Source of the DNA: Candidatus Poseidonia sp.
GTDB taxonomy: Archaea > Thermoplasmatota > Poseidoniia > Poseidoniales > Poseidoniaceae
Reading direction: 5' to 3'
DNA: 64,000 bases
Assembly (NCBI GenBank): GCA_030829545.1
Contig: JAURAI010000002.1
Location: 1 to 64,000 of the forward strand
The translations under genes were made by a program, and so were the position numbers. Positions 26,043 through 47,000 of this stretch are shown here, piece by piece. How positions within the stretch are numbered: the stretch's first letter is position 1; the number at the start of each line of letters is the position of its first letter. The notes beneath the pieces are model-generated. The model had not been told where the DNA came from. It did not search any database and saw only the letters and a list, made by a program, of their open reading frames with translations.

Positions 26043-27166
26043 AGATGGGCGTCAACCACGATACCTTCTCCGCAGTTGAACCGGGAAAGCCCGGGTCTGC
26101 GATGTACCCCACGTCCCCTCTTGGCGAGCAGGTAGAGGGAATTCCAACCGGCCGTGAAGTCGATTGGGAACCCCTGGTTGATTACCGACGAAACGGTGTG
26201 TCTGAGACGACCATTCACGGCGCTGTTGCATGGGCACACGGAGATGAAGTCATCCATTCATTTGGAGGCAATGTGCTGTGCTATGGCCGTTCGATGATGA
26301 AGCCCTTCATGCTCAAGGCATTCACCGAAGAGTTGGAAGATTGTTCTTGGGAACAAAAGTCCATTGCCGTCGCCTCCCACAACGGTGATACCGAACACGT
26401 GGCTGCTGCCCAATCCTTGCTTGCAGAAGCAGAATGGCCATTGATGCTCACGCCCCTTGATGTCCCTTTGATTCAATTTGGCCGACAAGTCCGACGCCCT
26501 CGTCGTTGGTACCACACCTGCTCGGGAGAACACGCCGCCATCTTGAGAGGGTGTCGAAAGAAAGGCTGGAACCGAGCGGGCTACACCCTTCCAAGCCACG
26601 AGGTCTTTCACGCGTACATGGAACAGTTGAGAACATACTTGGGCAAGGATTGGACACCGCTTCGTGTGGCCAAGGACGGATGTGGTCTGCCAACAGTGTC
26701 CAATACCGTCTCAGAACTCGCTCAGATATACGCAGGGTTGGTTCGTGACAAAGACGATGATTGGATTTGGGAAGCGATGGTTCGCCATCCTGATCTTGTC
26801 GGTGGATTCAATCGACTTGATTCAACAATTCTCAAAGCAGGTGCGGGTAGAGTCATCGCCAAGGAAGGGGCTGATGGCCTGTTGGGAATGGCAATTGAGC
26901 ATCCAGACTACCCCAAGGGTTTGGGTATCGTCGTCAAAATCGCTCACGGATGGAATTCACAAGCCACGTGGTATGTGGCACGCGCCCTCTTGGGTGTGTT
27001 GGGAATCAAGTTGAGAAATCCATATCCACTTCACCGTCAAAAAGCATTCATTGTTCCGGGCATCGTCCCTGAACGCTACATCGAAATTTTGGAAACCGTT
27101 CCCACGTGGGATGAATGGGACCCTGACCAAGACCGGTGGCACTTCGAAGTGGAGGTGCAGGATTGA
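26039..27166 (+). CDS. asparaginase II family amidohydrolase
   Basis: A 375-aa protein of the Rhizobium-etli-type asparaginase II family, unrelated to E. coli AnsB. Family landmarks visible are VDYRRNGVSETTIHGAVAW, the YGRSMMKPF segment (usually PRSxxKPxQ), VASHNGDTEHV, CSGEHAAILRGC (usually CSGKHxGML) and KDGCGLPTVS. It lacks a signal peptide and is cytosolic. It would hydrolyse asparagine or another small amide, releasing ammonia. The start is the GTG at 26039 inside the GTGA overlap with the monooxygenase stop, or the ATG at 26045, indicating translational coupling. The Lys-to-Glu change in the CSGKH motif makes the substrate uncertain. Confidence 0.85.
   Translation: MKMGVNHDTFSAVEPGKPGSAMYPTSPLGEQVEGIPTGREVDWEPLVDYRRNGVSETTIHGAVAWAHGDEVIHSFGGNVLCYGRSMMKPFMLKAFTEELEDCSWEQKSIAVASHNGDTEHVAAAQSLLAEAEWPLMLTPLDVPLIQFGRQVRRPRRWYHTCSGEHAAILRGCRKKGWNRAGYTLPSHEVFHAYMEQLRTYLGKDWTPLRVAKDGCGLPTVSNTVSELAQIYAGLVRDKDDDWIWEAMVRHPDLVGGFNRLDSTILKAGAGRVIAKEGADGLLGMAIEHPDYPKGLGIVVKIAHGWNSQATWYVARALLGVLGIKLRNPYPLHRQKAFIVPGIVPERYIEILETVPTWDEWDPDQDRWHFEVEVQD
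27151..27157 (+). promoter_or_regulatory. ribosome-binding site for the TTG-initiated ALDH gene
   Basis: GGAGGTG ends 5 bases before the TTG at 27163, within the end of the asparaginase-like gene. It decides the start of the aldehyde dehydrogenase, because the TTG overlaps the upstream TGA stop (TTGA) and yields the standard ALDH N-terminus, whereas the first in-frame ATG lies much further downstream. Confidence 0.75.
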
Positions 27167-28611
27167 ATCCAGTTCTCAATTACATCGACGGTCAATTCGT
27201 TGAAGCACAATCAGGGACAAAATTCGCAACCATCAACCCTGCAACAGGAACAATCATTGCCCAAGTAGCCCGTTCAAACGGAGATGATGTCGAAGCTGCA
27301 ACCCAAGCCGCTATCAAAGCGTCAAAGGCTTGGGCTGCGACGAGCCTTGAACAACGGGTGGCATGGTTGAATACCATCGCTGACGCTCTTGAGGCAAAAT
27401 CTGAAGCCATTGCCCACTTGGAATCATTGGATACTGGAAAGCCAATCTCACTCGCCCGCCGCGTGGATGCGAATCGCTCTGTCAGTAATTTCCGATTCTT
27501 TGCGAGCATGGGGGCCGACGACGAAGTTCCGATCTTTTCGGCTAACGGCGCTATCAATCACGTGCATCGAACACCCGTTGGCTGTGTTGGTCTCATCACA
27601 CCGTGGAACCTACCCTTGTATCTCCTCACGTGGAAAGTCGCACCTGCGCTGTTGATGGGCAATACCATCGTTGCAAAACCTTCAGAGTTAACACCCCTCA
27701 CCGCACACCTTCTCGCACAAACACTTGACGAACTTGAATTCCCAAAAGGTGTCTTCAACCTCGTTCATGGCTACGGTCCCGAAGTTGGCCAAGCGATTGT
27801 TGAGCACCCTTCCATCGGTGGAATATCGTTCACTGGAGGAACGTCCACCGGCAAGATCGTCGCCGCTACTGCAGCCCCCATGTTCAAAAAATTGTCATTG
27901 GAACTCGGTGGAAAAAACGCGACGATTCTTCTCGATGATGCGCCCCTCGAATCCATCATGGACGACGTCGTCCGTGCATCGTTCACCAATTCAGGCCAAG
28001 TGTGTTTGTGCGGTTCCCGTATCCTGGTTCACGAAAGCATCTATGAGAAATTCATTGATTCCTTTACTGCGAAAGTGAGTGCTTTGAACGTGGGTGACCC
28101 GATGGACGAAACCACGCAAATGGGTTCAGTCATCTCGATGGATCATCGTAACAAAGTCGAGGCCTACATCAAATTGGGTCTTGAAGAAGGGGGAAAAATC
28201 CTCACCGGCGGCACGAGCAGCGACGCACCAGTAGCCAACATGCCCGAAGACGGAGCATTCCTGCGTCCAACGGTTTTTGCAAACCTCTCAACGTCGTCTC
28301 GTACAGCGACCGAAGAAATTTTTGGACCTGTTGTCACCGTTCATTCCTTTGCCACCGATGAAGAGGCTATAGCCATGGCCAACGCCACTGATTATGGATT
28401 AGCCGGCTCTGTTTGGACTGCAGATATTGAACGCGGCCATGCATTCGCCAGAGAGATTGAAAGCGGCATCGTATGGGTGAATACATGGCTCAACCGAGAC
28501 CTTCGCACACCCTTTGGTGGCGTCAAACAATCCGGTGTTGGACGTGAAGGTGGAAGATGGTCAATGGACTTCTTTTCTGAATTAACCAACATATGTATTC
28601 GTCAACCTTGA
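27163..28611 (+). CDS. aldehyde dehydrogenase, 2-aminomuconate/2-hydroxymuconate semialdehyde type
   Basis: NAD-dependent oxidation of a semialdehyde to the acid. The 482-aa protein has the ALDH landmarks: PWN with Asn149, the NAD-binding segment FTGGTSTG, general base Glu247 in LELGGKN, and nucleophile Cys281 in NSGQVCLCGSR. ITPWNLPLYLLTWKVAPAL (145-163) and the end GREGGRWSMDFFSELTN resemble AmnC/NbaE/XylG-type muconate semialdehyde dehydrogenases. This subfamily call fits the AmnBA-like dioxygenase and RidA domain encoded 2-5 kb downstream. It starts at a TTG overlapping the asparaginase-like stop and is preceded by a strong ribosome-binding site. Other aliphatic aldehydes remain possible substrates. 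Confidence 0.9.
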   Translation: MNPVLNYIDGQFVEAQSGTKFATINPATGTIIAQVARSNGDDVEAATQAAIKASKAWAATSLEQRVAWLNTIADALEAKSEAIAHLESLDTGKPISLARRVDANRSVSNFRFFASMGADDEVPIFSANGAINHVHRTPVGCVGLITPWNLPLYLLTWKVAPALLMGNTIVAKPSELTPLTAHLLAQTLDELEFPKGVFNLVHGYGPEVGQAIVEHPSIGGISFTGGTSTGKIVAATAAPMFKKLSLELGGKNATILLDDAPLESIMDDVVRASFTNSGQVCLCGSRILVHESIYEKFIDSFTAKVSALNVGDPMDETTQMGSVISMDHRNKVEAYIKLGLEEGGKILTGGTSSDAPVANMPEDGAFLRPTVFANLSTSSRTATEEIFGPVVTVHSFATDEEAIAMANATDYGLAGSVWTADIERGHAFAREIESGIVWVNTWLNRDLRTPFGGVKQSGVGREGGRWSMDFFSELTNICIRQP

Positions 28612-28649
28612 GAACACATATTCAAAAGCCCTCAGATGATGCTTTGGGC

Positions 28650-29381
28650 ATGGACGAAGATGTGCTACCACTCTTCGTGCTCCCCATGGTACTCTTCCCG
28701 GGTGAAATCCAAGAATTACGAGTCTTTGAGCCCCGCTACCGTCAAATGCTGGACACCTGCATACTCGATGAACGGCCGTTTGGCCTGGTGCTCAACGATT
28801 CTTTCAGCCCTGCTAACGGGTGGGACGGGCCACGGCGACATGGTTGTGAAGCAGAGATTGTTCATCATGAAACCCGTGGAGTTCATCATTTTATCACCAT
28901 CACTGGAGGGCGACGCTTCTTCGTTGACGAAGTCATTGAACCGGCTTTGCCGCCTTTCAGTGACCCGAGTATGACCGAACTCTTGGGGGAAGAAGGCATG
29001 CTTCCGGACGTACACACCCTCATGGAACACGTTCCAGAAGACCACCCGAACCCATCACTCTACATCTCGGGCAAGGTTACCTATCTTCATGAAGAGGGCC
29101 TTCTCGATGAAGCTACACAAGATTACCTCAAAGACATCGTAAGGAAAGTCGTCGCTCGTGCAGGGGAGAACATGAGCATCAACGAAACAATGCTGTCGGA
29201 ATGGATCGAAACGATATGCGAAGAAAACGTGACTGATTCCGTTCAATCCATCTACAATATTGCCTCACTGTGCCTTGATGGACTTGAGGCACGTCAGCAA
29301 TTATTGGCCTCGTCAACGGTTGAAGAAATGATGAACGAATTCAATGAACACCTTCCTGTCTTCATTCGCGAATGGGAATAA
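28650..29381 (+). CDS. stand-alone LON substrate-binding (N-terminal) domain protein
   Basis: A 243-aa cytosolic protein matching the N-terminal domain of Lon without ATPase or protease parts: [28 protein letters not shown] is the classic LAN-domain start (residues about 5-33), followed by beta-rich sequence with GLVLND and ITGGRRFFV, then a helical C-terminal half. In bacteria and eukaryotes such proteins act as peptide or polypeptide binding adaptors, as in cereblon-like proteins. It is unrelated in sequence to LonB encoded at 9.3-11.4 kb. ATG 28650 was chosen just before the domain; an ATG at 28593 overlapping the ALDH gene by 19 bp is also in frame. Confidence 0.82.
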
Positions 29382-29424
29382 AGCCGGGGGAGCCTTTGAA
29401 AACACCGCTCCGCTTGGAACGGTC

Positions 29425-30246
29425 ATGTCGGTTCACGGCAATGCACGCAAGGTCACAACCCACACGCTTCAGGAAATGAAGCGAGCTGGTGAAAAAATCA
29501 CCATGCTCACCGCCTATGACTATTCCCTCGCACGTCTTGTTGACCAAGCGGGAATCGATGTCATTCTGGTCGGCGATTCAGCCTCCAATGTCATGGCAGG
29601 ACAGGCGACCACCGTTCCTATGACCCTCGAACACATGATCTATCACGCTCAATGTGTTGAACGGGCCGTTGACCGAGCATTGTTGGTCGTCGACATGCCC
29701 TTTGGAACATATCAGGGAAATTCCCGTCAAGCGCTTGATTCGGCGATTCGAATCATGAAAGAGGCCAGTGGTCACGCAGTGAAACTCGAGGGAGGCAGCG
29801 AAATTGTCGAATCCGTGGAGCGTATTCTCACTGCGGGCATACCTGTCATGGGCCACCTTGGTCTAACGCCTCAATCCATCTACAAATTCGGGACCTACTC
29901 CGTGCGGGCAAAAGACGACACGGAAGCGGATAAATTGATTGAAGATGCAAAATTGCTCGAAGCGGCTGGTTGTTTTGCCATCGTCCTTGAAAAAATTCCT
30001 CGTGAGTTAGCCAAGAGAGTAGCACAATCCATCAATATCCCAACCATTGGAATCGGCGCAGGACCCGACGTTGACGGTCAAGTTCTGGTGCTCCATGATT
30101 TACTGGGCATCACCATGGATTTTTCTCCCCGCTTTTTGCGACGCTATCTCAACCTCGCTGAGGAAATTGATGGTGCCTTGAAGTCCTATTGCGATGACGT
30201 CCGAAGCGGTGATTTCCCTAATGATGAGGAATCCTATACCTCGTGA
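29425..30246 (+). CDS. panB: 3-methyl-2-oxobutanoate hydroxymethyltransferase
   Basis: Transfers a hydroxymethyl group from methylene-tetrahydrofolate to 2-oxoisovalerate, giving ketopantoate for pantothenate and CoA. The 273-aa protein has [30 protein letters not shown] (metal and substrate site), [27 protein letters not shown] and [15 protein letters not shown], all family hallmarks. Archaea often make CoA by other routes with PoK/PPS, but PanB occurs in several. No panE or panC neighbour is present. The ATG at 29425 was chosen; an upstream ATG at 29344 lies inside the LON-domain gene. A folate-dependent enzyme fits with formate-tetrahydrofolate ligase at the end of the window. Confidence 0.95.
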
Positions 30247-30251
30247 CCAAC

Positions 30252-30740
30252 CTACCAAAAGAACACGAGAAAAGCGCCGCCAAAGGCGCCCATGTTCACG
30301 CCGAGTGTATGCCACAGGGCTGAGCGAAAGGGTGGGAGATGAAATCGCCACCACGACGTGCTGATCGCCACCCAAACAATCGCAGCAATGTATCCACCAC
30401 AGACGAAACCTCCGACACCCATGAGCCAAACGACAATAAAAAATCCACCAAGTATGGCAACGCCAAGAGCATATTCAGTCCAACGGTTCATCGGTTGGTC
30501 GGTCAAAAAATAATGAAACAGAGGGGAGAGAAGAAGCATCACAAGAAGTGCTCCTTGAATTGGATTGGGCAAACCCCAAGGGAGCATGGATTGTATTTTC
30601 CACTGCCAAATTCCAGCGACAATCAAACCGAAAAGGGCTGGCGCAGTCACATTGATCCAGGTCTCTTCCCAGGTCGCCGAACGAACGATAGGAGGCACGA
30701 GTTCATCGACCACAGGGCCTGCATCGCTTGCTTCGCTCAC
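30252..30740 (-). CDS. hypothetical membrane protein (four helices)
   Basis: Not recognised. The 162-aa protein has a short acidic N-terminal region, then four hydrophobic helices (about 30-50, 60-82, 88-112 and 112-128) and a final hydrophobic stretch ending at the C-terminus (about 140-162) that may be a fifth. It is the only minus-strand gene inside the 22-35 kb region and is convergent with panB, five bases between stops. It is divergent from the dioxygenase gene, sharing a 98-bp spacer. Confidence 0.7.
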   Translation of the reverse strand: MSEASDAGPVVDELVPPIVRSATWEETWINVTAPALFGLIVAGIWQWKIQSMLPWGLPNPIQGALLVMLLLSPLFHYFLTDQPMNRWTEYALGVAILGGFFIVVWLMGVGGFVCGGYIAAIVWVAISTSWWRFHLPPFRSALWHTLGVNMGAFGGAFLVFFW

Positions 30741-30810
30741 GATGGACCCAAGTATTGGTGGTGTTTGAGACTTAGCCTTTGTAAGAGATGATGTGGAGTG
30801 TCCGATGATG

Positions 30811-30818
30811 ACTTAAAC
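30811..30818 (+). promoter_or_regulatory. candidate TATA box of the dioxygenase operon
   Basis: ACTTAAAC lies 21-28 bases before the ATG of the AmnB-like gene, the right spacing for a leaderless or near-leaderless archaeal transcript covering the two dioxygenase genes. The match to consensus is moderate. Confidence 0.4.
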
Positions 30819-30838
30819 CTCGGCGGGATGGCAGAAAC

Positions 30839-31741
30839 ATGGTGAAGGGAAAAATCGTTGCAGGTTGCATCGCCCCACATCCGCCACATTTGGTATATGC
30901 AGAAAACCCTCCTCAAAACGAGCCCGTCGCAGAAGGGGGATGGGAGCAACTCAGATGGGGATACGAACGCTTGCGAGCCTCACTCGCCGACATTGAATAC
31001 GATGCAATCGTCGTCCTCTCTCCACATTGGCAGACCTACATCGGCACCCATTTCCTCGGCCTCCCCCATTTTGAAGGCTTATCGGTCGACCCTATCTTCC
31101 CAAATTTATTCCGATATCACTACGACTTGAACATCGATGTTGAATTGGCCAAAGCCATTCATGACGAGGCAGCATCGGCTGGTTTGCCCGTGAAAATGAT
31201 GGAGAATCCAGACTTCCGCGTCGATTACGGTACCATTACGACCGGACACTTGTTCAACCCTGAATGGGACAAACCCATGGTGGTGCTTTCGAGTAACCGC
31301 TCCACCGCATATTATTCGGTTGAAGTCATGCAAGAAATCATGATTGAATTGGGTCGGGTCACTCGCCGAGCCATTGAGGCAAGTGGCAAGCGAGTGGTAG
31401 TTTTAGCGAGCAATTCTCTTTCCCATCGCCACTTCACGACCGAATCAGAAGTACCCGAGGATATGAGCAAAGAACACATCACCAGCCATGCCATGCATTT
31501 GTGGGACATGCGAATCATTGACTACATGCGAACCGGGCAAGCACAGCGAATCCTTGATGAAATGCCGGAATTCACTGAACAAGCCATCGCTGAAAGTGAT
31601 GGAGGAGGCCTTTCATGGCTTCTTTCCACCCTTGACGTCCCAGACTACCCTGCGATTCTCCACGGCTATGGAACCATCATTGGAACCGGCAATGCTGTTG
31701 TGGAATGGCCCTGCCACGCACACGAGGAGGCAGATGCATGA
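30839..31741 (+). CDS. class III extradiol dioxygenase, catalytic subunit (2-aminophenol 1,6-dioxygenase beta-like)
   Basis: A 300-aa LigB-fold ring-cleavage dioxygenase. The probable Fe(II) ligands are His14 (APHPPH), His63 (SPHW) and Glu252 (AESDGGG), with catalytic His196 (SLSHRH) and Tyr130 (VDYGT). Each of these is one residue beyond the positions I recall for Pseudomonas AmnB (13, 62, 251, 195, 129), a near co-linear match in a protein of the same length. AmnB opens 2-aminophenol to 2-aminomuconate 6-semialdehyde. Other LigB enzymes cleave protocatechuate, gallate or homoprotocatechuate, so the substrate needs proof. The ATGA overlap with the next gene couples the two subunits. Confidence 0.85.
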   Translation: MVKGKIVAGCIAPHPPHLVYAENPPQNEPVAEGGWEQLRWGYERLRASLADIEYDAIVVLSPHWQTYIGTHFLGLPHFEGLSVDPIFPNLFRYHYDLNIDVELAKAIHDEAASAGLPVKMMENPDFRVDYGTITTGHLFNPEWDKPMVVLSSNRSTAYYSVEVMQEIMIELGRVTRRAIEASGKRVVVLASNSLSHRHFTTESEVPEDMSKEHITSHAMHLWDMRIIDYMRTGQAQRILDEMPEFTEQAIAESDGGGLSWLLSTLDVPDYPAILHGYGTIIGTGNAVVEWPCHAHEEADA

Positions 31742-33156
31742 CCGAAGGGAGTGTTGTAGGTTCCTTCGTGGTTCCCGTCCATCCACACACCGTTCTTGCT
31801 CCTGACCAAAACGAGGGTTGGCAACGCTTGAGGGATGCGTTTGATACCGCAGCTCAAACCATCAAGGAATTGGATGCCGACCTCCTGGTCATCTACTCCA
31901 CCACCTGGCCGTCGATTATTGGGCACCAAATCCAATCCGACCCAAATCCAGAATGGGTGATGGTCGACCATGATTTTCACGATTTGGGTTCCATTGAATA
32001 CTCATTCAACATTGACCAAGATTTTGCTCATGCTTGGGATGATGCCAACCGGAAACGCGGACTCCAGAGTCGTTGCGTGAACTACAAGGGATTCCCTATC
32101 GACGTGGGCTCGGTTGTTGCCCTCACCCTCCTCAATCCCGACAATGCCATACCTGCCGTGATTGTTTCATCCAACATGTATGCAAATCGTAGCGAGACAA
32201 CGGTTCTTGCTAAATCCTGCCTCGATGTAATCAAGGCACAAGGTCGCCGTGCTGTAGCGATCACTGCGATGTCCCTTTCCAACCGTATGTTCACTGATTT
32301 TATCAAGCCAGAAGAGGATAAAATCCATTCACTGAAGGACGATGAGTGGAATCTGAAAATACTTGAATTCCTCAAACAAGGAAGGTTGGAGGATGTCGGC
32401 CAACTCTCCCGGACCATTCAACGACAGATTCGGGTGCAGAAGGTTGTGGCATTCAAACCCATGTGGTGGCTATCAGCAATGAACGGGAACAGAAACGATC
32501 TGACCGGTCAGGTGCTTGCGTACGAACCAATTCACGGCGCAGGTGGAGCCGTGGTTTCCATTGACCCGACACCATCTGGGGCTGGTGACAAAGAATACGA
32601 TGAGGACGATATTGAGTATTTCCACGGCGAACGGGGTGTGCTGGACACTGTTGATGAAATTGATGAAGGTGGAGAAGAAGCCCCTGCGGTCGAACAAGCG
32701 TCATCTGGTCCCGGACTTTGGGAGCCCACAGAGGCTGAAGGTTCTGTCAACACCGATGCTGCTCCCAAGCCCGTCGGCGCATATCCTCATGCACGCAAGG
32801 TTGGAAACATGCTCTTCCTTTCTGGCGTCGGCCCACGTCAACCGGGTACCAATGCCATTCCGGGAGGGCCAATTCACGATGAGAACGGTGAACCGTTGGA
32901 TTACGACATTGAAGCACAAACACATGCGGTGGTCAACAATGTCAAACGAATCGTAGAGGAGGCAGGTGCCTCAATGGACCAAGTCGTTGACGTGACAACA
33001 TTCCTTGTTGACATGAAGCGCGACTTCAAAGGATACAACGATGTTTGGGCACAAACATTGGGTAAGATCGGCCCCACTCGCACGACACTTGCCATTGATG
33101 CACTCCCAACCCCCATTGCCGTTGAAATGAAAGTGATTGTTCATTTGGGCGAATGA
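31738..33156 (+). CDS. dioxygenase alpha-like subunit fused to RidA (2-aminomuconate-deaminase-like) domain
   Basis: A 472-aa fusion. Residues 1-275 are a LigB-fold domain paralogous to the preceding subunit but without its iron site: the SPHW position reads TTWP (56-59) and no acidic ligand precedes the late WWLSAM segment, as in the non-catalytic AmnA subunit. Residues 276-343 are an acidic flexible linker. Residues 344-472 form a complete RidA/YjgF domain: GAYPHARKVGNMLFLSGVGPR-type start, VVNNVKRIVEEAGASMDQVV, and PTRTTL with Arg448. RidA proteins include the 2-aminomuconate deaminases AmnD and NbaF. The start at 31738 lies in an ATGA overlap. Inferred role: partner of the dioxygenase plus a downstream deaminase step in one chain. 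Confidence 0.85.
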   Translation: MTEGSVVGSFVVPVHPHTVLAPDQNEGWQRLRDAFDTAAQTIKELDADLLVIYSTTWPSIIGHQIQSDPNPEWVMVDHDFHDLGSIEYSFNIDQDFAHAWDDANRKRGLQSRCVNYKGFPIDVGSVVALTLLNPDNAIPAVIVSSNMYANRSETTVLAKSCLDVIKAQGRRAVAITAMSLSNRMFTDFIKPEEDKIHSLKDDEWNLKILEFLKQGRLEDVGQLSRTIQRQIRVQKVVAFKPMWWLSAMNGNRNDLTGQVLAYEPIHGAGGAVVSIDPTPSGAGDKEYDEDDIEYFHGERGVLDTVDEIDEGGEEAPAVEQASSGPGLWEPTEAEGSVNTDAAPKPVGAYPHARKVGNMLFLSGVGPRQPGTNAIPGGPIHDENGEPLDYDIEAQTHAVVNNVKRIVEEAGASMDQVVDVTTFLVDMKRDFKGYNDVWAQTLGKIGPTRTTLAIDALPTPIAVEMKVIVHLGE

Positions 33157-35418: not shown

Positions 35419-38037
35419 TCATTCGTGACGAATCCATTCACCATCTGGAGTGACTTCCCAGTATTGCAGTTCCTCTGAGACATCGACATACCAACCCGTT
35501 TCTCCTTGGGTTGTTGACGGTGTAGCCTGCATCACTCCGATTTCGCCCGCTTGAACGGCGAGTTCTTTCATCGATTCTTCAGTTAATCCGTGCCGCTCGT
35601 GCACTGGCGTGGTATCGAGGACATCAGGGCCTGAACCTTCCAGTTCTTCGCCCTCCTCGTCCGAATCATCCTCATCATCAAAGGCCTCATCCATCCAATC
35701 CTCTTGTGCAACTTGGGACGCTTTCCGATTAAGCACAATCAACACCGCCAGAATAAGGAAGAGAAGGATTGCAGCCATCGTCATGGCCGTATTGGTCGAT
35801 CCGACGGCACCGCCAAGGAGAACTTCGTCAACATCAAAGAAAGTCTGTGCGAGAAGCCCATTCCATCGAATGGTGCAGGAACGGTCGGTTCCTCCCTCAC
35901 TGACATCAATTTCCCACGTACCATTTGTAACGAAGGATGAATCTCCTGCTGTGCAGGTCACCGAAGTGTTTTCTTTGGGAATTGAAATCGAGTTCCCATA
36001 GGCATCAGTACCGATGGCTCCCACCAGGACAACATCTCCCTCGGCAAGGTTTTCGCGGCTAAGGGTGGCCTGTATCCGGATGGGGTCACCTGAACCTACG
36101 GTGACTTCAATGGAGTGCTGTGCATCACCTTCCTGTAAATCAAGCGTGTATACTCCGACTTGCTTGCCCGTAAAGGACCAGTAACCAAGTCCAGTGGGTG
36201 AAGCGATTAATTCACCAAAACTTGTGTTGATTGATGTGGTCACCTGGTTGGCCTCAGCGAGGTTACCATGGACGTCAACAACCTGAACAAAGACATCGGT
36301 TGGGATTCCGGCACGTACGTACAGTCCATCATCAGCATCCGTTACCAAGGCATGCGGAGCACCCGCTATCACCGTCAATCGGACGGTTGCAAACACACCA
36401 TCAGCGTTGACTCGTAATTCGTGACCGCCCAGTGTGGTTGCCACCCATCGACCATCGTTGAGCAGCATGTCAAGGGTGATGTCGTTGCCATCCAGGGTCC
36501 AATTCAATACAATGTCTGGGAGTTGATTGCCGTGGGCATCAAGAAATTGTGGGTCCAAGTCCAACTCGCCGTCCGCAGGGACGAGGCTTCCCTCACCTTG
36601 CAAGGTAATGAACGCAAGCCTACCAACACCCACATCAAATGCTATGTCAGTGATGAATTGCGCCCCGGTTGAATTGTCAAACCAATTCCCCTCGAAACGC
36701 CACGAGCGCGCCTCTGCGGCTTGAATAATCCAGTAGGAAGGGGATTGGGTTAATTCGTCAGCATTTCCAATCTCCATCGTCGCCGTTCCGTTGACGGCCC
36801 AAGTATTTCCTTTGACGTCAACGGCACGCAATACCAATACAACTTGGTCTCCTGCAGAAGGTACGCTTGGAGTTATATCAAAAAAGACATCGATGGCTCG
36901 ACCGTGAACGACTGTAACTGTTTTTTGTGTCATGAACGTACCGTCTTGGCCTGAAATTGTAGCAGGACCCGTCGTTGAAGGGTTCCAATACACCCTCAAT
37001 TCATCATCAACCGATAAACCGCCTGAATCAACACTCAGTGATTGTATGGGCGGTGATACGAAGCCGATGTAGCCACTCTCGTCTCTTCGCTCGTAAACCA
37101 GCTCATAGGATTCTCCTGCCCTGTATTCAAGTGGTTGGTCCAAGAAAACAAGTTCTAATGCAACAGCATCACCCGGATTCACCTGAATTGTACCTGTCCC
37201 GGTGACGTTACCGGAAGTTGCACTCACGACCCACCGTCCCGTGTTGGTCGCTAAATATTCACCTTGTGCGTTAAAAGATCCGTTTTCAGCGTACCAAGCG
37301 ATTGATGGTACCGTTGCAAGTGGCATTTCATAGCCGTTAACGTCAACCAGTGTGGGTCGTATTTGTGTGAGACTCCCTGCACGTACTTGGAGTAGATCGG
37401 GGAATACAAAGGCGTGAGGACTTCCCGCACCTACGGTGAGATGGGTCTCATCCTGGAGTTGGTTGTAGCGAACCTTTGCACTGAATGCTCCCGTTGTTTC
37501 AGGTGTCCATGCAGGTGAGCCATGCCCGATGTATTCTCCATCAATATCCCAAACGAGGTTCGGGCCACCCGCCATGCGGTTGCCCCTTCCGTCCAAGATG
37601 TCGGCGGTGAGATTACCACTGACTTGTGCCATGAAATGAAGACTTGTAATCTCGATTGCTGTAGCAACTCCTGGGGTCACGGAAATATTGTGCGTGGCTT
37701 GTAGGCCGTTATGTTCAGCAGTGATTTCAATCAAGCCTGAAGACCAAGGGAAAAACAATCCATCTGAAGTAATGGAACCGTTGGAGGAACTCCACGTGAT
37801 ATCTCCTGAAACGATGTTGTTGACTGGATCGTAAATCACAGCATCAAAATCAACCACTTCATCCGCAGACATTGAAGGTGGGGGAGTGTCGATGACAACC
37901 CGGTCAGCCGTGCCAGAAAACAGCGGTTGCGATGATTCATCAAGACTGCTCTGGTGACTCATAGGCACCGCTGCAAGGACCATGCTCACTACCAAAAAAA
38001 TGGCTAAAGTCGTGCGTTGGTGCATCGTATCACCCAT
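35419..38037 (-). CDS. surface protein with tandem Ig-like (BIG) domains
   Basis: An 872-aa secreted protein with a signal peptide (TTLAIFLVVSMVLAAVP, about 8-24), about seven to eight bacterial Ig-like/invasin-type repeats (about 35-760), a transmembrane helix (TAMTMAAILLFLILAVLIVL, about 765-785) and an acidic cytoplasmic tail ending in Trp-rich sequence with GWYVDV and YWEVTPDGEWIRHE. The repeat pattern, with D-x2-GN turns such as DVHGNL and DAHGNQ, is the same as in the C-terminal third of the 3066-aa protein encoded upstream, so it looks like a paralogue of that part. The ATG at 38037 shares one base with the upstream stop (TGATG), indicating translational coupling. Confidence 0.83.
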   Translation of the reverse strand: MGDTMHQRTTLAIFLVVSMVLAAVPMSHQSSLDESSQPLFSGTADRVVIDTPPPSMSADEVVDFDAVIYDPVNNIVSGDITWSSSNGSITSDGLFFPWSSGLIEITAEHNGLQATHNISVTPGVATAIEITSLHFMAQVSGNLTADILDGRGNRMAGGPNLVWDIDGEYIGHGSPAWTPETTGAFSAKVRYNQLQDETHLTVGAGSPHAFVFPDLLQVRAGSLTQIRPTLVDVNGYEMPLATVPSIAWYAENGSFNAQGEYLATNTGRWVVSATSGNVTGTGTIQVNPGDAVALELVFLDQPLEYRAGESYELVYERRDESGYIGFVSPPIQSLSVDSGGLSVDDELRVYWNPSTTGPATISGQDGTFMTQKTVTVVHGRAIDVFFDITPSVPSAGDQVVLVLRAVDVKGNTWAVNGTATMEIGNADELTQSPSYWIIQAAEARSWRFEGNWFDNSTGAQFITDIAFDVGVGRLAFITLQGEGSLVPADGELDLDPQFLDAHGNQLPDIVLNWTLDGNDITLDMLLNDGRWVATTLGGHELRVNADGVFATVRLTVIAGAPHALVTDADDGLYVRAGIPTDVFVQVVDVHGNLAEANQVTTSINTSFGELIASPTGLGYWSFTGKQVGVYTLDLQEGDAQHSIEVTVGSGDPIRIQATLSRENLAEGDVVLVGAIGTDAYGNSISIPKENTSVTCTAGDSSFVTNGTWEIDVSEGGTDRSCTIRWNGLLAQTFFDVDEVLLGGAVGSTNTAMTMAAILLFLILAVLIVLNRKASQVAQEDWMDEAFDDEDDSDEEGEELEGSGPDVLDTTPVHERHGLTEESMKELAVQAGEIGVMQATPSTTQGETGWYVDVSEELQYWEVTPDGEWIRHE

Positions 38038-41000
38038 CACTCGGTCCATTCTTGCCAGTCTTCTTCACCTTCGAGACGGAACCACCAGGTTCCTTCGTCG
38101 TCTTCCCACCACGCAGTACCATCTTCATCTACACGGTAACTTTCATCGTCTTCTACAGAGGATTCCTCTGCTTCAACAACTTCTTCCTGTACGGGGGCTG
38201 GGCCGCTTGGGCCGGGAGCAGGACCTGATGGCCCCGGAGCCGGTCCGCTTGGACCAGGAGCCGGTCCGCTTGGGCCAGGAGCCGGTCCTGTCGGTCCAGA
38301 GGTTGGACCACGTGGGCTGTCTTCGTCTTCATCGTCGTCGTCATAATCATCGTCGTCCCAATCATCACTGCCGTTTGAACGGAAGAACATGACTGCGAGA
38401 CCAAGAAGGACAATCGCTACCAAACCAAGGAGACCTGCGCCGACGTAATAGATGGTGCCACCGGCTTCAAAGAATCCTTCAATATTGCCAATAACATTGA
38501 TCTCACTGTTGACGCGCACTGAACCAACACTGACCGTAATGGTTTGAGGACCATCGTCCAGTGTTGTAATCGTCCACTGGTCGGAAGCGAACATGGTTGT
38601 CGTCGCACGTCCAGTAGCCTCTACCTTGATGCTGGAAGGCACAGAAATCTCGTTGTCAAAGGCATCAAAGGCGCGGATTGTAACCTCTAAACTTTCAAGT
38701 TGCTCAAGTGAATCCGTTGTCAAATTCACCTCAAGTCGAGCCACAGTACTCTGAGCCTCAACCGTCACTTCTACCGTGGACACAGCGCCACCTGCGGCAT
38801 ACTGCAGTGTGTGAACTCCTGCGATTTGTGCCTCGTAGGTATAGGACCCGGTTTCAGTTGTTAAGACGCTGAGTGTTGCAACAGGTGAACCGTCTTCGGT
38901 CCATTGCACGTTTTGGTCAAATTCATTTCCATCACTGTCTGTCCCTCGGACTTGGATTTCAACGATTTGACCAGCAACAGGGTTGCTCTCGGTCAAGGTC
39001 GCATCGACGACCACGGCTACACCGTTGTAAACGGTGATGGTGATACTGTCTGAGATGTTGAAGCCTGTTCCACTTACGCTGTATGCAGCGATGGTCCACT
39101 CTCCGACTTCGGTAGCGTCCCATCGCATGTTGTTGAGAAGAAGTTCGGTCGTGATGTCACGTACATCTCCGCTCGCCTCATTGATTTCAATCCAAACGAG
39201 TTCGCCTGAATCGATTCGATTGTTATCTGCATCGTACAAATCCGACAGGAAATCAACGGAGTAATCCGCTGACATCTCAAAGGTTGCTCCCGTGTCATGG
39301 TCGGGGTTGTTGGCAGTTCCTGTGATGTCCACTGTGTGAAGGAAACCGTGGTCAACCGTTACGTTAATGGATACTGTAAACGATTGTATGCCATCAAAAT
39401 AAGTGGCAGAAAGCATGTACGGGTCATCGCTTGCAAAGTAGGGTGAGAACGTCGTAGCGTCACCGACCATTGTCTCAAGGAAGGCTGAGGAGTCGCCCAT
39501 GGTTGGATGGTCAATGCTCCAGTTGGCTTGTACCACCCATTGGTTGCCCTTTCCGTCTCTTGCGAAGATTTCAGCTTCAATGGTATCATCCGCAGTCAAA
39601 TCGAAGTGCTGCCAAGTTGAAACTTCATCATCAACTTCAAGCAAAAGATTCTGGATGGCACCTCTGCTTACATCGATGGTCACTTGAGCAAGCGTGGTCT
39701 CATAACGCGCTTCAATCGTCTTTTCGCCCTTGGAAACTGGGTCCCAAATCGCAGGTGCTCCAGGTGTCAACTGACCGTCTGCAATCTTGGTCCAATTATC
39801 AGATGGAAGGAGGACTGGCAGGCGGTTACCACGAACATCGACCCGAGTTGTGTTAATCCAAACACGGTCGTCTGCTGTGATCGATGTGCTCGAGACATTG
39901 AGGTCAAGGTAGGCCATTTCACCGTGCCCGACTGTGATCATCAATTCATCTGAGGCACCAGAAACGGAGGTGAGGTTGAGCCACCATACCCCGATGTGGT
40001 CTGGGAAATACTCCTGATTGATTTCAGAATAATTACCGTTGGTGGTGGTCCATGTCAAATTTCCTGCAGATGAGCTATCAAGCGTATTGCCGAATTGGTC
40101 GTAGAGGTCTGCCGTGATGCCACACCATTCGCCTGCAGGTACCGTTCCTTCACAGCCACTGAGTTCGAAATAGGATGGAGCACCCGCTTCAACAGTGATA
40201 CTCACATCAACAAATTCTCCTGAAGCAACATCATGTTGCACCCTTACGACGTGTGTGCCGACTGCATAGGGCTGGAAGACATGAGGCATCACAGCACTCA
40301 TCGAGCCGTTGGTTGGTGTGTAGGTGAGGGCTTCTCCCGCCACGATGTTCCCGTGTTGGTCAACCAAGTGGGCGGAGATGGTAAGCGTCTCATCAGCACT
40401 GATAGTAGCGCTGAGTGGTGTAACGACCAAGTCGGTTGGTGCACCGGCCGTAACGGTGATGTTCTGCGTACCACAAACAAGTCCAAAGCAGGCTGAGATG
40501 ACATGAGTGCCCGTCGTACTCGGCGTGTACAATCCGTTGCTACCGATGTTTCCTGCTGTTGCTGACCATGTTGTAGGTGGGCTCTGAACCATGCCTGTGT
40601 GATCGTAGGATGCAAAGTTGAAGTTGACCGAAGTATCAGCATCGGTGGTAAGAATACCCGAAGGAGTAATGTCAATGGTCGTAATGTTGGTCGTGTTGAA
40701 TTGGACTTGAGGTCGATAAGCCGTCGTCGTCGCTTCACCAGAATAAAACGAAGCATGACCGTAGCCGCTGTTTGGAGTTGCCATGATCACCCATGCCTGT
40801 TGGCTGTTGATGGTGAGCCCCGGTGTACTGATGTCAAACCAAATCCAGCCTGTTGTGTCAACATTGACCACGGTCGTGGAAACAGCATCGCCGTAATCAA
40901 TACCGGCTTGCATTCCGGGCGCAGACCAATTCGCACCCGATGTCGAGCCGTTGAAAGTAGCACTGGATTGGCTCCACCCTGTGGCCAAAATCGGATGGAC

Positions 41001-44000
41001 ACTGAATGAAATTGATGTAGCACCCTGTGCAATTGTCCATGATTCAGCGTAAAGTCCGAGGGAAGCAGAATGGACCTTTTGGTAGGCTGGGAACGGTACT
41101 TGCCCAGAATTGAAACCAACGGTGAGCGAGCAATTGTCCGCCCAAAGCGTTCCGCAGAAGGTACCTGCGCTCATGGTCGAATCATCTCCGAAGTTTTGGT
41201 CAGGGTATTCACTGTACAAACTCGTGTCCTGAATGTTGGTATGTCCGTAAGCAGCGACCTCGTTGCCAGTTTGCATGAGGTAAGTGTACGTGTAATCGTT
41301 GTTGTAGACATGGTTTGGTGAACCGATTGCAAAGCTCCATCGTGACGATGAAGGTCCTGGAATCGACTGATTCACACCTTGAACCCACCAGGTGTAAAGC
41401 GAGCCAGCGGTGAGGTTTGTCTCAAATCGGAAGGTGGTGTTGGTAATCTCAGAATCTTCCCAAGACTTGTATTTGTAGACACCAGTTTGATTTGCGATGG
41501 TCACGATGTAACCATCGGCAGCTGCAAGAGGAGTCCAAGACAGCATCGGTTGAGTTTCGGGAGACAAAATACCATTGCTTTCGTCGTACAATACCTCTCC
41601 ATCATTGGGGAAGGTGAGTGAGGGCTGTGCTGGTGGGACAATACCGTTGGTGTTGTCCACATAATCCAGTACGAGATGAGGGTCGAAACTCGAATTCCCG
41701 TTTTCCGATGAGAAGAAGGAATGCGATGAACCAGTCGTGCCGATTTGTTGAATCATAACGGTCATGGTCGTATTTCCGTTGGCGATGTTGTCCTGAGCAA
41801 GGCTGGTCAAATCCCAGTCCATCCATCCGATTGGAGTGGACAGAGTGAGGGTTGAACGCGTAATCTCTGTTGAAGAGCATGTTGGAGCGCTGGTCCAAAC
41901 CACCGTTGATTCTGAGAATCCACCGCAAGGGTAGACACCGAAAGTGGTGGATGATGTTCCAACAACGCTTGTTTGATACATGCGCAGCATCATCTGTGTG
42001 GGTGTCATAGCTGCTGGCCAAGGCATGGCCGAAAGGTCAAATTCCAAGAGAATTCGGCTTTCACCACTTCCACCTGAAGAGGTCCCAAGCACCATCGTAG
42101 TGGCGGAACCTTTGTTGGTAACTGAGCCAGATGCGATTTCAACATCGGGCACAAGTGGAAGAGTTCCTGTCAAATCAAAGACTGAGCCCCGTGAAATATT
42201 GACGGTATGGTTGCCGTTTCCGTCGTCGCTTCCTTGGTCGGAGGGGTTACGGAATTTGTGAACAGACGACCATTCACCGATTCGGTCACCTTGATCTGCA
42301 CGAATTCTCCAGTATGTCCAGAAATCACCTTTGCTCATGTTGCTTTCCGTGACGGTTCGGTTAAGTGCATCGTAAACCACATCGCTGATGCTGCCATCGG
42401 AAATTTCGGTAGTTGTGGTGCAGATGTCTTCATTTGAAACAAATCGTGGATCATAGGAAAAGCAGCCGACGAGTTGGGTTTGATTGGTGATTGTTGAGTT
42501 CCATGAATAGGTCGTTGTATCCTGTCCGGATGGGCGAGGTTGAGATGTGTCCCAAAGTGTTGCACCATCGGCAGGAACCAAGCCCGTGGGTCCGGGCACC
42601 GCCCATGGCGTTACCAAACGGTAGGTCAGATTCAAGCGTGGACGGGTATCGATGTTGGAGGCTTCACTGCTCGCAAATTGAACACGTCCTGCAACAACTC
42701 CCGCAATTTCTTCGGGCTGCACAATGACATTGATTCCAGTTTGTCCCGCTGCCAAAGCATGCTGAACAATCGAGGTAACATTGAGGGCAACTGTTCCGGT
42801 TGTGTTGACCCACACTCCCTCGGTTTCAGGGATTTCTGAGTCTGTGGAATGATAGGCTCCGACACCTTGCCAAGAAGAAGTATTTCCAGCTGGATAAGCC
42901 CACGAAGAAGATTCACTCCAAGCGGTGATCATTTCTGAAACGGTCATGAAGACTTCATTGTTGGAATTCACGGCGGTCATTTCAAGACTCGCGTTGACGA
43001 CTTCGTACGTGCCTGGCATTGGCAAGGATGAGAAATCAATGTCGATAAGTGAACTCGCACGTAGGCTTGGATTGGAAGTTGATACCTGACTACGTCCGAC
43101 ATAAAGATAGGATGAACTGCCTTGGTTCGCATAGATATTCCCGCTGTCAAGATAGGTATCAGCAGTGACACTTGGGTAGGACAGTGACGGCACAAATGCA
43201 CCTTCTTGAATCATAAGAGTGGCATGCGTCGAATTCAATTCTTCACCAAGATCATTGGGCAGGTAAAAGGTCGTTGCATTGCTTCTTGGACCGAGCATTC
43301 CGTTGTTGATGGGTTGTACCATCCAACGGATTTCCTGTGCGAAGGTCAGGTCGGAATTTGGATTGAACGTAAGGTTCGTCACATCAAATGATGTTGTATT
43401 TACCCGAGAATCGTAGACATAGAGGCCAGCCATATCGTCAGAGGCATCTTCTTGGATGAACAAACGCCAATCAGTCGCAGCGGTTGTGCCGCTGTACGAC
43501 CAGGAAAAGGTCGGCATGCGGTCAGCGATAAGGGCATGCGATGTCGTATCCCAAACCAATTGGCTTTGAGTTGGTGCAGTATTCACTCCACCCACCGTGG
43601 GTGTAGCGACAGCTCCATCTTCCCATGTAAGCGTAAGGTAAGGCCGTTCGGTGGAACTGCCTTCGGTAGATGTGAACGTGATGAGGTCGTCGGTATTGCT
43701 GGAAGTGTATATCATCAATGAGAGATGGGTCTGTCCGTTTGCAAGAGCTGCTTGCACGGCTTCAGTAACATCGAAATCCATCCAATCATCATTGACACTT
43801 TCAACGAGATCAACATAACCCCCGATGTCCACCCCAATGGCGCGTCCACCTGCTTGTGACCAATTATTGACGCCATCATAGGTAGTGGCATTGGCAGCAG
43901 TCGTCCAACTTTGCAAGACCGGGCGAACAGCCACAGGTTCACCGGAGACGGAGGCGTATTCAGAGAAGAGACTGAGTTCAGCATCGGTGACCCGTGCCGC

Positions 44001-47000
44001 AGATGGTTGAGGCACTTCGCTCAGTGGAATACGAAGAAGGGCAGCGGACTGATAGCCAGTGCTGGTTTCCCCTACCAAAAGTGTGGATGAATTCTCGTAG
44101 GTGTCGTCTGAGCCCGAACCGTTTTCGATGACGTAGGTGTCTCCGAAATTCGGCAAATTAAGGTGAGGAAGAGCCCCTCGGTGTTGAAGTTCAACCGAGG
44201 CTTTTGTGGCGTTGTAGACCACGGTGGTGAGATCCGGTAGGTGGAAGTGGAAGGCATTTGACCAGTTACCAATTTGGTTGGTTGAGGAAACGGTTCGTAC
44301 ACGCCAGAAGTAGGTGGCTCCCTCGTCCAGATCAGTGCTGGGTGTGAAGGTGCGATTGGTGACATCAAAGCCAACGTCATTCCATGAGGTGTAGGTTTCT
44401 GCATTTACTGACCCGAAATCGGATTGAGTGTCCGTTTGTACAATGAAGCCTGTAATCGGTAAGGATGAATTGAATCCCCAATTGAGTTCGGGTTGGGTGA
44501 TGGGAGTCATGTCCACGCCAGTACCAATACTCCATGAACCGTTGAGCGGTGTTGTTGGGACTGGGTCGTTTGGAATGGCATCAGAACCAGGCACGTAAAC
44601 AAAGGAGAGTTCGGGGCGATTGCTGGCTGAATCTTCTGCAGTGCTAAAGTACGCTGTTCGGGCTGAACCTGAACCAACACCGAGCATTCCTGCGATGAAA
44701 TCGACACGGCGGTCTTCACGCATCGCATTTTGAACAGCAAGCGTCACGTTCCATTCCACTTCATCGCCCTCGAAATAGGACGAGCCGATAGTAACACTGT
44801 CGAGAAGCGAAGAACGTTCACTTCCCTTGGCACCTGCGGTGTCCCATGAGTTGCTTCCGTCGTAACTGGACCATGTTGCATCTTCTGCACTCCAACCGTG
44901 TTCTGTGCTTTCCCATACTGCTACTGTTGGGTTACCAAAAGTCGATGAAGTCAAAGTCATCTTCAGGTGGGCGGATTCAACTGCGTAACCGTTTGGAAGG
45001 AGATTTGAAACGAGGTTGCATCCAAGCAATGCTGCGATTTCAGTTCCTCCGTTGAAGGTATTGTAATCGATGGTCATTTCTGAATCACCGTCGAAATTAT
45101 CGTTGGTAGCGCTGCTGTCGATGTAGGTATCCATGCACTCAGGATATTGATTGTCATTGGAACCATTGCCGTGCTTCAGTCGGAACTCGTAACGGTCGCC
45201 ACCAAGCCACGTCGTTTCAAGAGCAGAAACAAAGAAGCTTGAAGAAGTCCATTCTCCATAATGGTCGTCACTGTCCACGGTGGCCATGCGCCAGAAGTAC
45301 ATGTTTCCAACCTCTAGGGTGAGTGATCCGGTCATGTCAAGTGTACCGTCGCTCGGAGAGAAATCGTTGTCCGTTCGGGTATCGACCCGAAGTTCGCGCA
45401 GACGGAAATCTTCGTCGGTGGCCAGTTCAAATATGATTTCGTCAGACGTCGTCGGTGCTGTCCAATTCAATGTGGGCTGAGTATTTCCTGAAAGGTTGTG
45501 GCCTGTTTGATTCCAAACTGCAAGAGCATCCTCGGGTGCGGTAAGTGAAACGGGTGCGGGTGCAGATCCGCTTCCCCATTCATACGTAATGCTGAACGAA
45601 GGCGCATCGGTAGCAACAACGGCCTCGGCTGAATGGAAAACAATCCCTTCACCATTGGTGTAGGATTCGTACTTACCACGAACGGCCAACATCATGTCCA
45701 AGGGCGACTGGTCACCGTTGTCAAGGTAATTCTGTACGGCATGGTCGAGGTCAAAGGTGAAAGAGTCTGAGGTTTGATTTCCATCTGCGAGGGCAATGGT
45801 AGCCGTTCCTTTGGAACGTCCACCGTCGTACCATTGGAAGCCATTAGCAGCCATTTCGTTCCATGTCACGTCATCTTCAACCCACAATCCAGATTCTTCC
45901 ATGCCGTGGAGGGAGATTACGGGATCTCCGGAGTAGGATGACCGTGTGAGTTTCAATTCAGCATTGACGATGGTAAGGTTGTCGTGGAGGCCGAGTTGAT
46001 TGAGAGATGTGCGCAGATGTATCAGGCGCTCTTTCGACGAGGTCATGCTTGATTCAAGGGTGGTATCATCGCCGTAGGTGATTGTTTTGCTTGTTTCACT
46101 GACAAAACTGTCCTGGAAGAAGTCCTCTGAAAGACCGGTATCTACTGGATCGAACGTCATCGTTGCTGTACCATCGCCGTTGTCAACGACATTGAGGGTC
46201 GGGAGCATGAATGATGTTGTGTCCCACGAACCCCACTGGTCGTTACTATCAACGGCTCTGATTCTCATTTGCATGGTTGTTCCGTTGACCAAAGCGAGAG
46301 AGGTAGGAACATCAAATGCACCGGTCGTCCCCGTTGATACGAAGGTGTCCCAAAGGGTCGAGAAGTGCCAGTCTTCATCGGTCGAGGAACGCCAATCATC
46401 GCTGTTGCTCAGTTGGATTTCTACGTCTTGACCAGAATTGTTGGCGTAGGTAAGGCGCGGTGTTGTGACCGGCTTGAGAAGGAAGTCGCTTTCCATCCAA
46501 GGGGCGCCGTCTGCAATCGGCAGATCGGCCTCAACGCTTGCACCTGCAGAGGCAGCACCCGCAGTGGTATCCAATACAAAGGCCGGTTCATTCCCACTGG
46601 TCGTTGTTTCAGAAAGGTCGCATGTGTAGGTAGCACCCAGTGATGAAACGATGATGGAGAGGTAGGAGGCATTCGAACGCGCAGCATGTTGTGCGAGACT
46701 GGTCACGTTCAGACTGAGTGTTCCGTTGCTTGACAACAAAGCAGGGGGCTCCCAAATGCCCCGGTCTGAACTTGATTCTGCACCCATCGTGGTCCAAAGC
46801 TGATTGCTCGCAAAAGAAGTCCAGGACACATAAGAACCATTCCACATGCGATCCATGCTAGCGACATAGGCATGCATGTCAGTCGAACCCAAATCGGTGG
46901 TGGTGCATTGGAGATTCACCGTAGCCGAATGAATGGTATCCGAGGCGGTATAATTCATCGGGAAGCGGAGCAAAAGACGTGATTCTTGCAACATCTCGTT

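Follow-up and report, generated by a model that had tools for sequence, protein, structure and literature searches.

A conserved gene set of common ocean archaea and a proposed, previously undescribed breakdown of tryptophan to aspartate and 2-aminophenol

Genes at the locus

The window analysed here is a stretch of 64,000 nucleotides from Candidatus Poseidonia sp. (contig JAURAI010000002.1, positions 1 to 64,000), which lies in a genome (G000) of 1.63 Mb in 28 contigs that is 73.7% complete. It holds a gene cassette related to the bacterial 2-aminophenol meta-cleavage pathway. The full cassette consists of an SDR-family dehydrogenase, a luciferase-like flavin monooxygenase (LLM), a protein of the asparaginase-II family (AsnII), an aldehyde dehydrogenase (ALDH), the catalytic subunit AmnB and the partner subunit AmnA of an aminophenol-type dioxygenase, and a RidA domain of the 2-aminomuconate deaminase (AmnD) type (Table 1). 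An initial annotation had reported three consecutive enzymes within 6 kb, namely an AmnB/AmnA-like pair, a muconate-semialdehyde-type ALDH and a deaminase-type RidA domain. All three are present, but they are not strictly consecutive: ALDH is separated from AmnB by a LON-domain gene, panB and an open reading frame (ORF) on the opposite strand. The conserved set also comprises more than these three steps. Families, residues and trees support an AmnBA/AmnC/AmnD-type module in this archaeon, and homology firmly places the module, at the family level, in an order-wide archaeal core set. Hereafter, MGIIa denotes the family of the window, MGIIb the other family of its order, and MGIII the other order of its class; these names (Marine Group II, MGII, and Marine Group III) and the phylum name Thermoplasmatota are our presumption, and the analysis itself gives kinship alone. 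The AmnB of the window is 99% identical to that in a bin titled Poseidonia sp. (L001).

The genes for LLM, AsnII, ALDH, the LON-domain protein and panB overlap by 4 to 38 bases, and so do those for AmnB, AmnA-RidA and the following permease, which suggests two transcription units. An ATG at 31738, overlapping the AmnB stop, is a possible true start of AmnA-RidA, and the LLM orthologues begin near residue 13, so that the true LLM start is possibly at ~24792. The LON-domain gene and panB were rejected as pathway members because they are absent between ALDH and AmnB in MGIII and in two genomes from other families of the phylum (G216 and G246). Contamination of the bin was also set aside, since the cluster is common across the order and is flanked by archaeal genes (among them replication factor C and lysyl-tRNA synthetase).

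Table 1 Features of the cassette and its neighbourhood, in window coordinates.
Feature	Start	End	Strand	Basis or remark
BD-FAE alpha/beta hydrolase	22282	23028	+	PF20434, 62 bits; near cassette in MGIIa loci
SDR-family dehydrogenase	23038	23880	+	PF00106, 130 bits
TPR protein	23890		+	
Luciferase-like flavin monooxygenase (LLM)	24756	26042	+	Family and fold evidence
Asparaginase-II family protein (AsnII)	26039	27166	+	PF06089, 163.5 bits
ALDH, 2-aminomuconate/2-hydroxymuconate-semialdehyde dehydrogenase family	27136	28611	+	PDB match, tree, residues
LON-domain gene	28593		+	
panB	29344		+	
Opposite-strand ORF	30252	30740	-	Between panB and AmnB
AmnB-type catalytic subunit, aminophenol dioxygenase (LigB-1)	30839	31741	+	PDB match, tree, iron site
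His14 codon (iron ligand, AmnB)	30878	30880	+	Alignment
His63 codon (iron ligand, AmnB)	31025	31027	+	Alignment
Glu252 codon (iron ligand, AmnB)	31592	31594	+	Alignment
AmnA-type non-catalytic subunit fused to RidA domain (LigB-2)	31705	33156	+	PDB match, tree
RidA domain, 2-aminomuconate deaminase (AmnD) type	32755	33144	+	PDB match, tree
APC-family amino acid permease, C-terminal EF-hand pair	33153	34928	+	Often adjoins RidA in Poseidoniales

The ring-cleavage module

The two LigB-fold proteins lie where AmnB/AmnA-like genes had been placed. Among PDB sequences, the best match of LigB-1 is AmnB (8ihg_A, 369 bits) and that of LigB-2 is an AmnA-type subunit (3vsg_A, 138 bits). The archaeal AmnB is 53% identical to CnbCb and 53-57% identical to bacterial aminophenol dioxygenases. 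As previously reported, LigB-1 carries His14, His63, Tyr130, His196 and Glu252, and the iron site is lost in LigB-2, which has V, T, V, N and Q at the five columns. All five active-site residues (the iron-binding His/His/Glu, the catalytic His and the Tyr) are kept in 29 of 29 AmnB rows, and a complete iron site is found in none of the 29 AmnA rows. In a maximum likelihood tree of 62 rows (29 AmnB, 29 AmnA and 4 outgroups for comparison with HpaD-type extradiol enzymes), the archaeal catalytic subunits join bacterial AmnB (support 99/98) and not the HpaD-type enzymes, the archaeal partner subunits join bacterial AmnA (100/98), and the branching is similar in both halves. This favours the aminophenol-type assignment of the initial annotation over a grouping with other LigB families, and the deepest splits are less sure in view of a long-branch warning from the program. 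Plasmid-borne homologues of the pair (L133:10001-11783 and L134:12001-13856) are annotated as 'tRNA U-34 5-methylaminomethyl-2-thiouridine biosynthesis protein', a name that is probably wrong. A contig titled uncultured Rhodobiaceae bacterium (L041), whose AmnB is 86% identical to that of the window, is probably mis-binned.

The best PDB match of the ALDH is 2-aminomuconate-semialdehyde dehydrogenase (4u3w, 479 bits), and its TIGR03216 score of 551 bits is below the cut-off of 693. Numbered from the start at 27136, the protein has the family residues Cys290, Glu256, Asn158, Arg114 and Arg457, of which the first two are the Cys281 and Glu247 noted before. The Cys, Glu, Asn and two Arg are kept in 12 of 13 archaeal rows, and they also occur in HpaE and catechol-type enzymes and so are non-specific. 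The archaeal clade (100/98) is sister to a mixed clade of AmnC, 3-hydroxyanthranilate-type enzymes and one catechol-type enzyme. The muconate-semialdehyde family is upheld, and the tree separates neither AmnC from catechol-route enzymes nor amino- from hydroxymuconate substrates, so that the substrate is not readable from it. An ALDH orthologue was present in 20 of 20 genomes searched.

The RidA domain (residues 351-480 of the LigB-2 protein) best matches 2-aminomuconate deaminase in the PDB (6izh, 92.6 bits versus 75.5 for the next). In a tree of 39 rows, from which three of 11 other archaeal RidA candidates (L196, L199 and L200) had been dropped beforehand, 18 archaeal cassette rows group with 8 bacterial AmnD-type rows (100/99). 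Outside this clade fall 8 other archaeal and 5 other bacterial RidA proteins, including the one beside cnbCb in strain CNB-1. The domain thus groups with AmnD and apart from unrelated RidA proteins, as had been proposed. A second RidA is present in 10 of 12 genomes, and G000 and G004 have the linked copy only. AmnA and RidA share one reading frame in all 78 testable loci of the 80 kept for linkage counts (see below). Of the further loci, those of MGIIb have separate genes in 10 cases and a fusion in 2 (one genus); the genes are separate in 4 of 4 MGIII loci and fused in G216 and G246.

Conservation and linkage to tryptophan enzymes

The cassette is found again in MGIIa and MGIIb alike, in the sister order MGIII, and in the two other families represented by G216 and G246. 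Linkage, which goes beyond chance, was counted in the best 80 of 190 AmnB candidate loci, where AmnA directly follows AmnB in 80/80 and RidA follows AmnA in 78/80, the other two being cut by a contig end. LLM and AsnII are adjacent in 64/64 loci holding LLM, AsnII and ALDH in 67/67 holding AsnII, and 66 of the 71 loci with both ALDH and AmnB have the former upstream of the latter, on the same strand; in many MGIIb the cassette is split into SDR-LLM-AsnII-ALDH and AmnB-AmnA-RidA. When the order was searched with the AmnB protein, matches were obtained in 177 of 193 genomes, 34 of 34 good genomes and 21 of 21 genera, with only a weak match in 4 of the 177 (G120, G131, G151 and G179) and none in 16 genomes. 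In a sample of the phylum, 87 of 292 genomes matched, 4 of them only at E ~1e-4, and the 83 strong ones comprise 77 MGII, 4 MGIII, G216 and G246.

LLM was found in 20 of 20 genomes searched. The window LLM itself has no Pfam match, and PF00296 was detected in the three archaeal orthologues scanned and in a Streptomyces homologue; an LLM profile gave two weak matches only among PDB sequences. Its predicted model (pLDDT, the predicted local distance difference test, 84.7) resembles luciferase-family monooxygenase structures; a type II Baeyer-Villiger enzyme (4uwm) ranks 39th in a list that contains many monooxygenases as well as F420 enzymes, at 12-16% identity. A RutABC-like pyrimidine route, considered for the resemblance of LLM and RidA, was rejected because the LigB pair and the tryptophan 2,3-dioxygenase (TDO) described below do not fit it. 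The sole plasmid-borne LLM homologues are from Streptomyces clavuligerus (3 records), with no asparaginase or AmnB nearby, and no relatives were found in viral contigs. The S. clavuligerus copy at L170:15022-16263, 48% identical, adjoins an eCIS-core (extracellular contractile injection system) protein and a DUF389 protein, with no other cassette genes in 31 kb. The SDR gene adjoins LLM in both families of the order, MGIII and G216, and in G246 it comes after the arylformamidase gene mentioned below. A flavin-reductase family member is present in 14 of 16 genomes, in G000 on the same contig far outside the window.

AsnII is a homologue of the class 3 (Rhizobium etli-type) L-asparaginases. It shares PF06089 with the R. 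etli enzyme ReAV, in which the catalytic pairs are Ser48, Lys51, Ser80 and Lys263, and the Zn ligands are Cys135, Lys138 and Cys189 (PMC8602277). The AsnII residues Ser85, Lys88, Ser113 and Lys275, invariant across 21 rows, align with these two Ser/Lys pairs. In contrast, the 21 rows have Glu (19) or Gln (2) in place of the Zn ligand Lys138, and both Zn-ligand Cys are replaced in the two MGIII rows; we do not class this homologue as an asparaginase. The best plasmid-borne relative is 32% identical. Elsewhere in the window, at 53615-54997, lies another asparaginase-type gene, unrelated to AsnII and with GatD as its N-terminal domain, so that AsnII is not the sole asparaginase-like gene of the window.

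A search for TDO in 16 chosen genomes was positive in all but G030 (15 of 16). In G000 its gene is on another contig (G000:C7), and the TDO motifs of PDB entries are kept. In four MGIII genomes (G270, G321, G326 and G400), TDO lies directly upstream of SDR-LLM with a 13-base gap, and in G246 it lies upstream of LLM inside the cluster. A fifth MGIII locus (G260) starts inside AsnII at its contig edge, and the search of this genome gave no TDO. In G246 and G216, the gene after RidA encodes a KynB-type arylformamidase (TIGR03035, 196 bits against a cut-off of 223 in G246), and the two proteins are 50% identical; the KynB query returned nothing in the Poseidoniales and MGIII loci scanned. Across the 292 genomes, 80 have both AmnB and TDO, 3 AmnB alone (G009, G030 and G260), 13 TDO alone and 196 neither (Fisher's test, p 1e-53; the genomes are related, hence this is not a true probability).

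Kynureninase is scarce in this group. A match above the cut-off was obtained in 1 of the 292 genomes (G013), and there was none in G000, which is 73.7% complete, nor in the cassette clusters. Among the 13 TDO-only genomes, five are MGII or MGIII (G032, G050, G054, G075 and G326, the contig of the last ending inside AsnII). Of the other eight, which lie outside the class, a kynureninase-like gene directly adjoins TDO in G221 and G234 and lies 2.2 kb off in G213; G256 has a weak match beside TDO, G309 a fragment at a contig edge, and G226 such a gene on another contig, beside KynB. In G205 and G352, no kynureninase-like gene was present in the 13.5 and 14 kb read around TDO. These kynureninase-like genes all score below the cut-off; still, their occurrence near TDO in five of these eight genomes and on another contig in a sixth, set against the scarcity of kynureninase in cassette genomes, favours the route proposed below.

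A proposed route and its alternatives

The conserved linkage to TDO, arylformamidase, LLM and AsnII makes it likely, as judged from gene content, that the cassette belongs to tryptophan breakdown through kynurenine. The initial annotation had proposed that an aminophenol or a 3-hydroxyanthranilate-like ring is opened with release of ammonia; the type of the module holds, and the proposal was incomplete in that the linkage points to tryptophan and kynurenine. We propose, with a probability of roughly one half, that the cassette degrades L-tryptophan via kynurenine and 2-aminophenol without kynureninase. We put at the same level the broader view that this is a new tryptophan catabolic route core to MGII and MGIII, in which LLM and AsnII replace kynurenine 3-monooxygenase (KMO) and kynureninase, and the AmnA-deaminase fusion of many of these archaea may channel unstable ring-fission products.

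In the proposed route, TDO would yield N-formylkynurenine (step 1), and a formamidase, KynB in G216 and G246, would yield kynurenine (step 2). The genes then available before the AmnBA step are LLM, AsnII and SDR. Kynurenine is a beta-aryl ketone of aspartate, and oxygen insertion followed by hydrolysis gives exactly aspartate and 2-aminophenol, the substrate of AmnBA. LLM, which we propose from its modelled fold to be a kynurenine Baeyer-Villiger monooxygenase, would insert oxygen between the ring and the ketone to form the 2-aminophenyl beta-ester of aspartate (step 3), and this should rearrange to N4-(2-hydroxyphenyl)asparagine by an acyl shift to the neighbouring amine. AsnII would then act as a hydrolase on this aspartyl aminophenol ester or amide and release L-aspartate and 2-aminophenol (step 4). 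The presence of an asparaginase relative would thus be explained, because the intermediate would be an aspartate ester or amide, an asparagine analogue. AmnBA would open the ring to 2-aminomuconate 6-semialdehyde (step 5), ALDH would form 2-aminomuconate (step 6), and the RidA domain would deaminate it to 2-oxohex-3-enedioate and ammonia (step 7). By comparison, four enzymes (KMO, kynureninase, 3-hydroxyanthranilate dioxygenase and 2-amino-3-carboxymuconate semialdehyde (ACMS) decarboxylase) ordinarily convert kynurenine to 2-aminomuconate semialdehyde, and AmnBA forms this compound from 2-aminophenol in a single step. What was observed are families, key residues, linkage and co-occurrence; we infer every reaction from them, steps 3 and 4 most of all, and for these two, the Baeyer-Villiger and asparaginase-like steps, the odds are about even.

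Several observations weigh against this proposal. The Poseidoniales TDO scores under the equivalog cut-off (179 of 391 bits), and it has unrelated neighbours and no cassette genes beside it in the five MGII stretches that were scanned (Pfam or blast). The co-occurrence counts overstate the evidence, the genomes being kin, and G216 and G246 are the sole independent cases beyond the class. In addition to the cassette, the MGIIb genome G013 encodes a full kynureninase (425 bits; L226, G013:C29:6106-7323), which we read as a transfer or contamination, and the MGIII genome G270 has a 62-bit kynureninase match. In addition, the LLM fold is also compatible with F420-dependent reductases, the SDR is conserved in the cassette without an assigned step, and the ALDH of G246 has Ala in place of one Arg.

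The same linkage evidence can be read differently if LLM hydroxylates the ring like KMO, in which case AmnBA would open 3-hydroxykynurenine or 3-hydroxyanthranilate and AsnII would have some other role. TDO and KynB suit any kynurenine route, and 3-hydroxyanthranilate operons of bacteria, too, contain relatives of the ALDH and RidA. However, the scarcity of kynureninase, absent from the clusters and above the cut-off in that single genome, makes this reading doubtful, and AsnII, always adjoining LLM, would be left without an obvious step. Moreover, 2-aminophenol fits AmnBA better than 3-hydroxyanthranilate as judged from the gene sets, because the ring-fission product of the latter would need a decarboxylase, and no ACMS decarboxylase was seen in the clusters; no genome-wide search was made for it, for KMO or for 3-hydroxyanthranilate dioxygenase, which belongs with the points against our proposal.

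A plain Pseudomonas-type route for 2-aminophenol or a derivative taken from outside, with LLM and AsnII preparing another precursor, would agree with the high identity of AmnB to bacterial aminophenol dioxygenases; for the ARO microcompartment loci of Actinobacteria, too, the source (PMC10470539) gives the natural precursor of 2-aminophenol as unknown. The linkage to TDO and KynB in separate lineages and the occurrence in nearly all members of an order with small genomes make this route unlikely, and the usual aldolase was not above the cut-off in 16 genomes, although the control was weak. It is more improbable still that AsnII is itself the N-formylkynurenine formamidase, with LLM alone or with SDR leading to the AmnBA substrate. 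In favour of this reading are the membership of AsnII in an amide-hydrolase family and the empty result of the KynB query in the Poseidoniales and MGIII loci scanned, but G216 and G246 hold both KynB and AsnII in one cluster.

The proposed tryptophan route can be compared with several known systems. The proteobacterial amn/cnb operons (Comamonas CNB-1 pCNB, Pseudomonas veronii T1 and Ensifer adhaerens M8) likewise cluster AmnB, AmnA and an ALDH of the 2-aminomuconate-semialdehyde dehydrogenase type, and those of P. veronii and Ensifer share the AmnD-clade RidA. In contrast, the archaeal AmnA is fused to RidA in MGIIa, SDR, LLM and AsnII are added, and clustered fumarylacetoacetate-hydrolase, aldolase and acetaldehyde dehydrogenase genes are missing. 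The kynureninase-type kynurenine pathway shares TDO and the KynB-type arylformamidase, whereas kynureninase is missing in nearly all cassette genomes, with LLM and AsnII in its place. The ARO loci share AmnBA and the ALDH of the 2-aminophenol route and have shell proteins, whereas the archaeal clusters show none (PMC10470539); 'monooxygenase' and 'amidase' do not occur in that text.

As for the lower path, no clustered decarboxylase, hydratase, aldolase or acetaldehyde dehydrogenase of the amn type was found in the cassette loci. All 15 MGII genomes searched encode a single protein of the fumarylacetoacetate-hydrolase family, at a site distant from the cassette. The amnG-type aldolase model gave no match above its cut-off in 16 genomes; as none of 14 controls passed either, absence is not shown, and the DmpG_comm model was silent in 20 genomes and in its control. 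An acyl-CoA dehydrogenase and an enoyl-CoA hydratase lie in the vicinity of the G246 cluster, and an HpcH/HpaI lyase and a MaoC dehydratase near that of G216; judging from these neighbours, the route perhaps has a CoA-dependent end there.

Marine Group II archaea are abundant but have not been cultured, and their diet is poorly known. If the proposed tryptophan route is correct, a near-universal, oxygen-dependent conversion of tryptophan to aspartate and ammonia would inform on both the diet and the oxygen use of MGII, and a luciferase-like enzyme and an asparaginase relative, both orphans at present, would gain testable functions. It would also suggest a natural source of the 2-aminophenol whose precursor is given as unknown for the ARO microcompartment (PMC10470539). 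No description of this route was found in the open literature on MGII/Poseidoniales, kynurenine and 2-aminophenol, a scope of open-licence texts that makes the absence weak evidence. In this literature, MGII and 2-aminophenol met only in a community list of predicted pathways, not tied to MGII. Two large genome surveys of MGII (PMC6336850; PMC6461757) do not use the words 'tryptophan', 'dioxygenase', 'aromatic' or 'aminophenol' in their main texts.

Among the neighbouring genes, the BD-FAE hydrolase is a weak candidate, by family and position, for the MGIIa formamidase, and the APC permease is a possible importer. The combination of an APC permease with a C-terminal EF-hand pair is unusual. 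Further along the window, a single ORF of 3066 aa is found at 38037-47237 on the minus strand; it adjoins an 876-aa ORF, and the latter has related stretches at its side in other loci.

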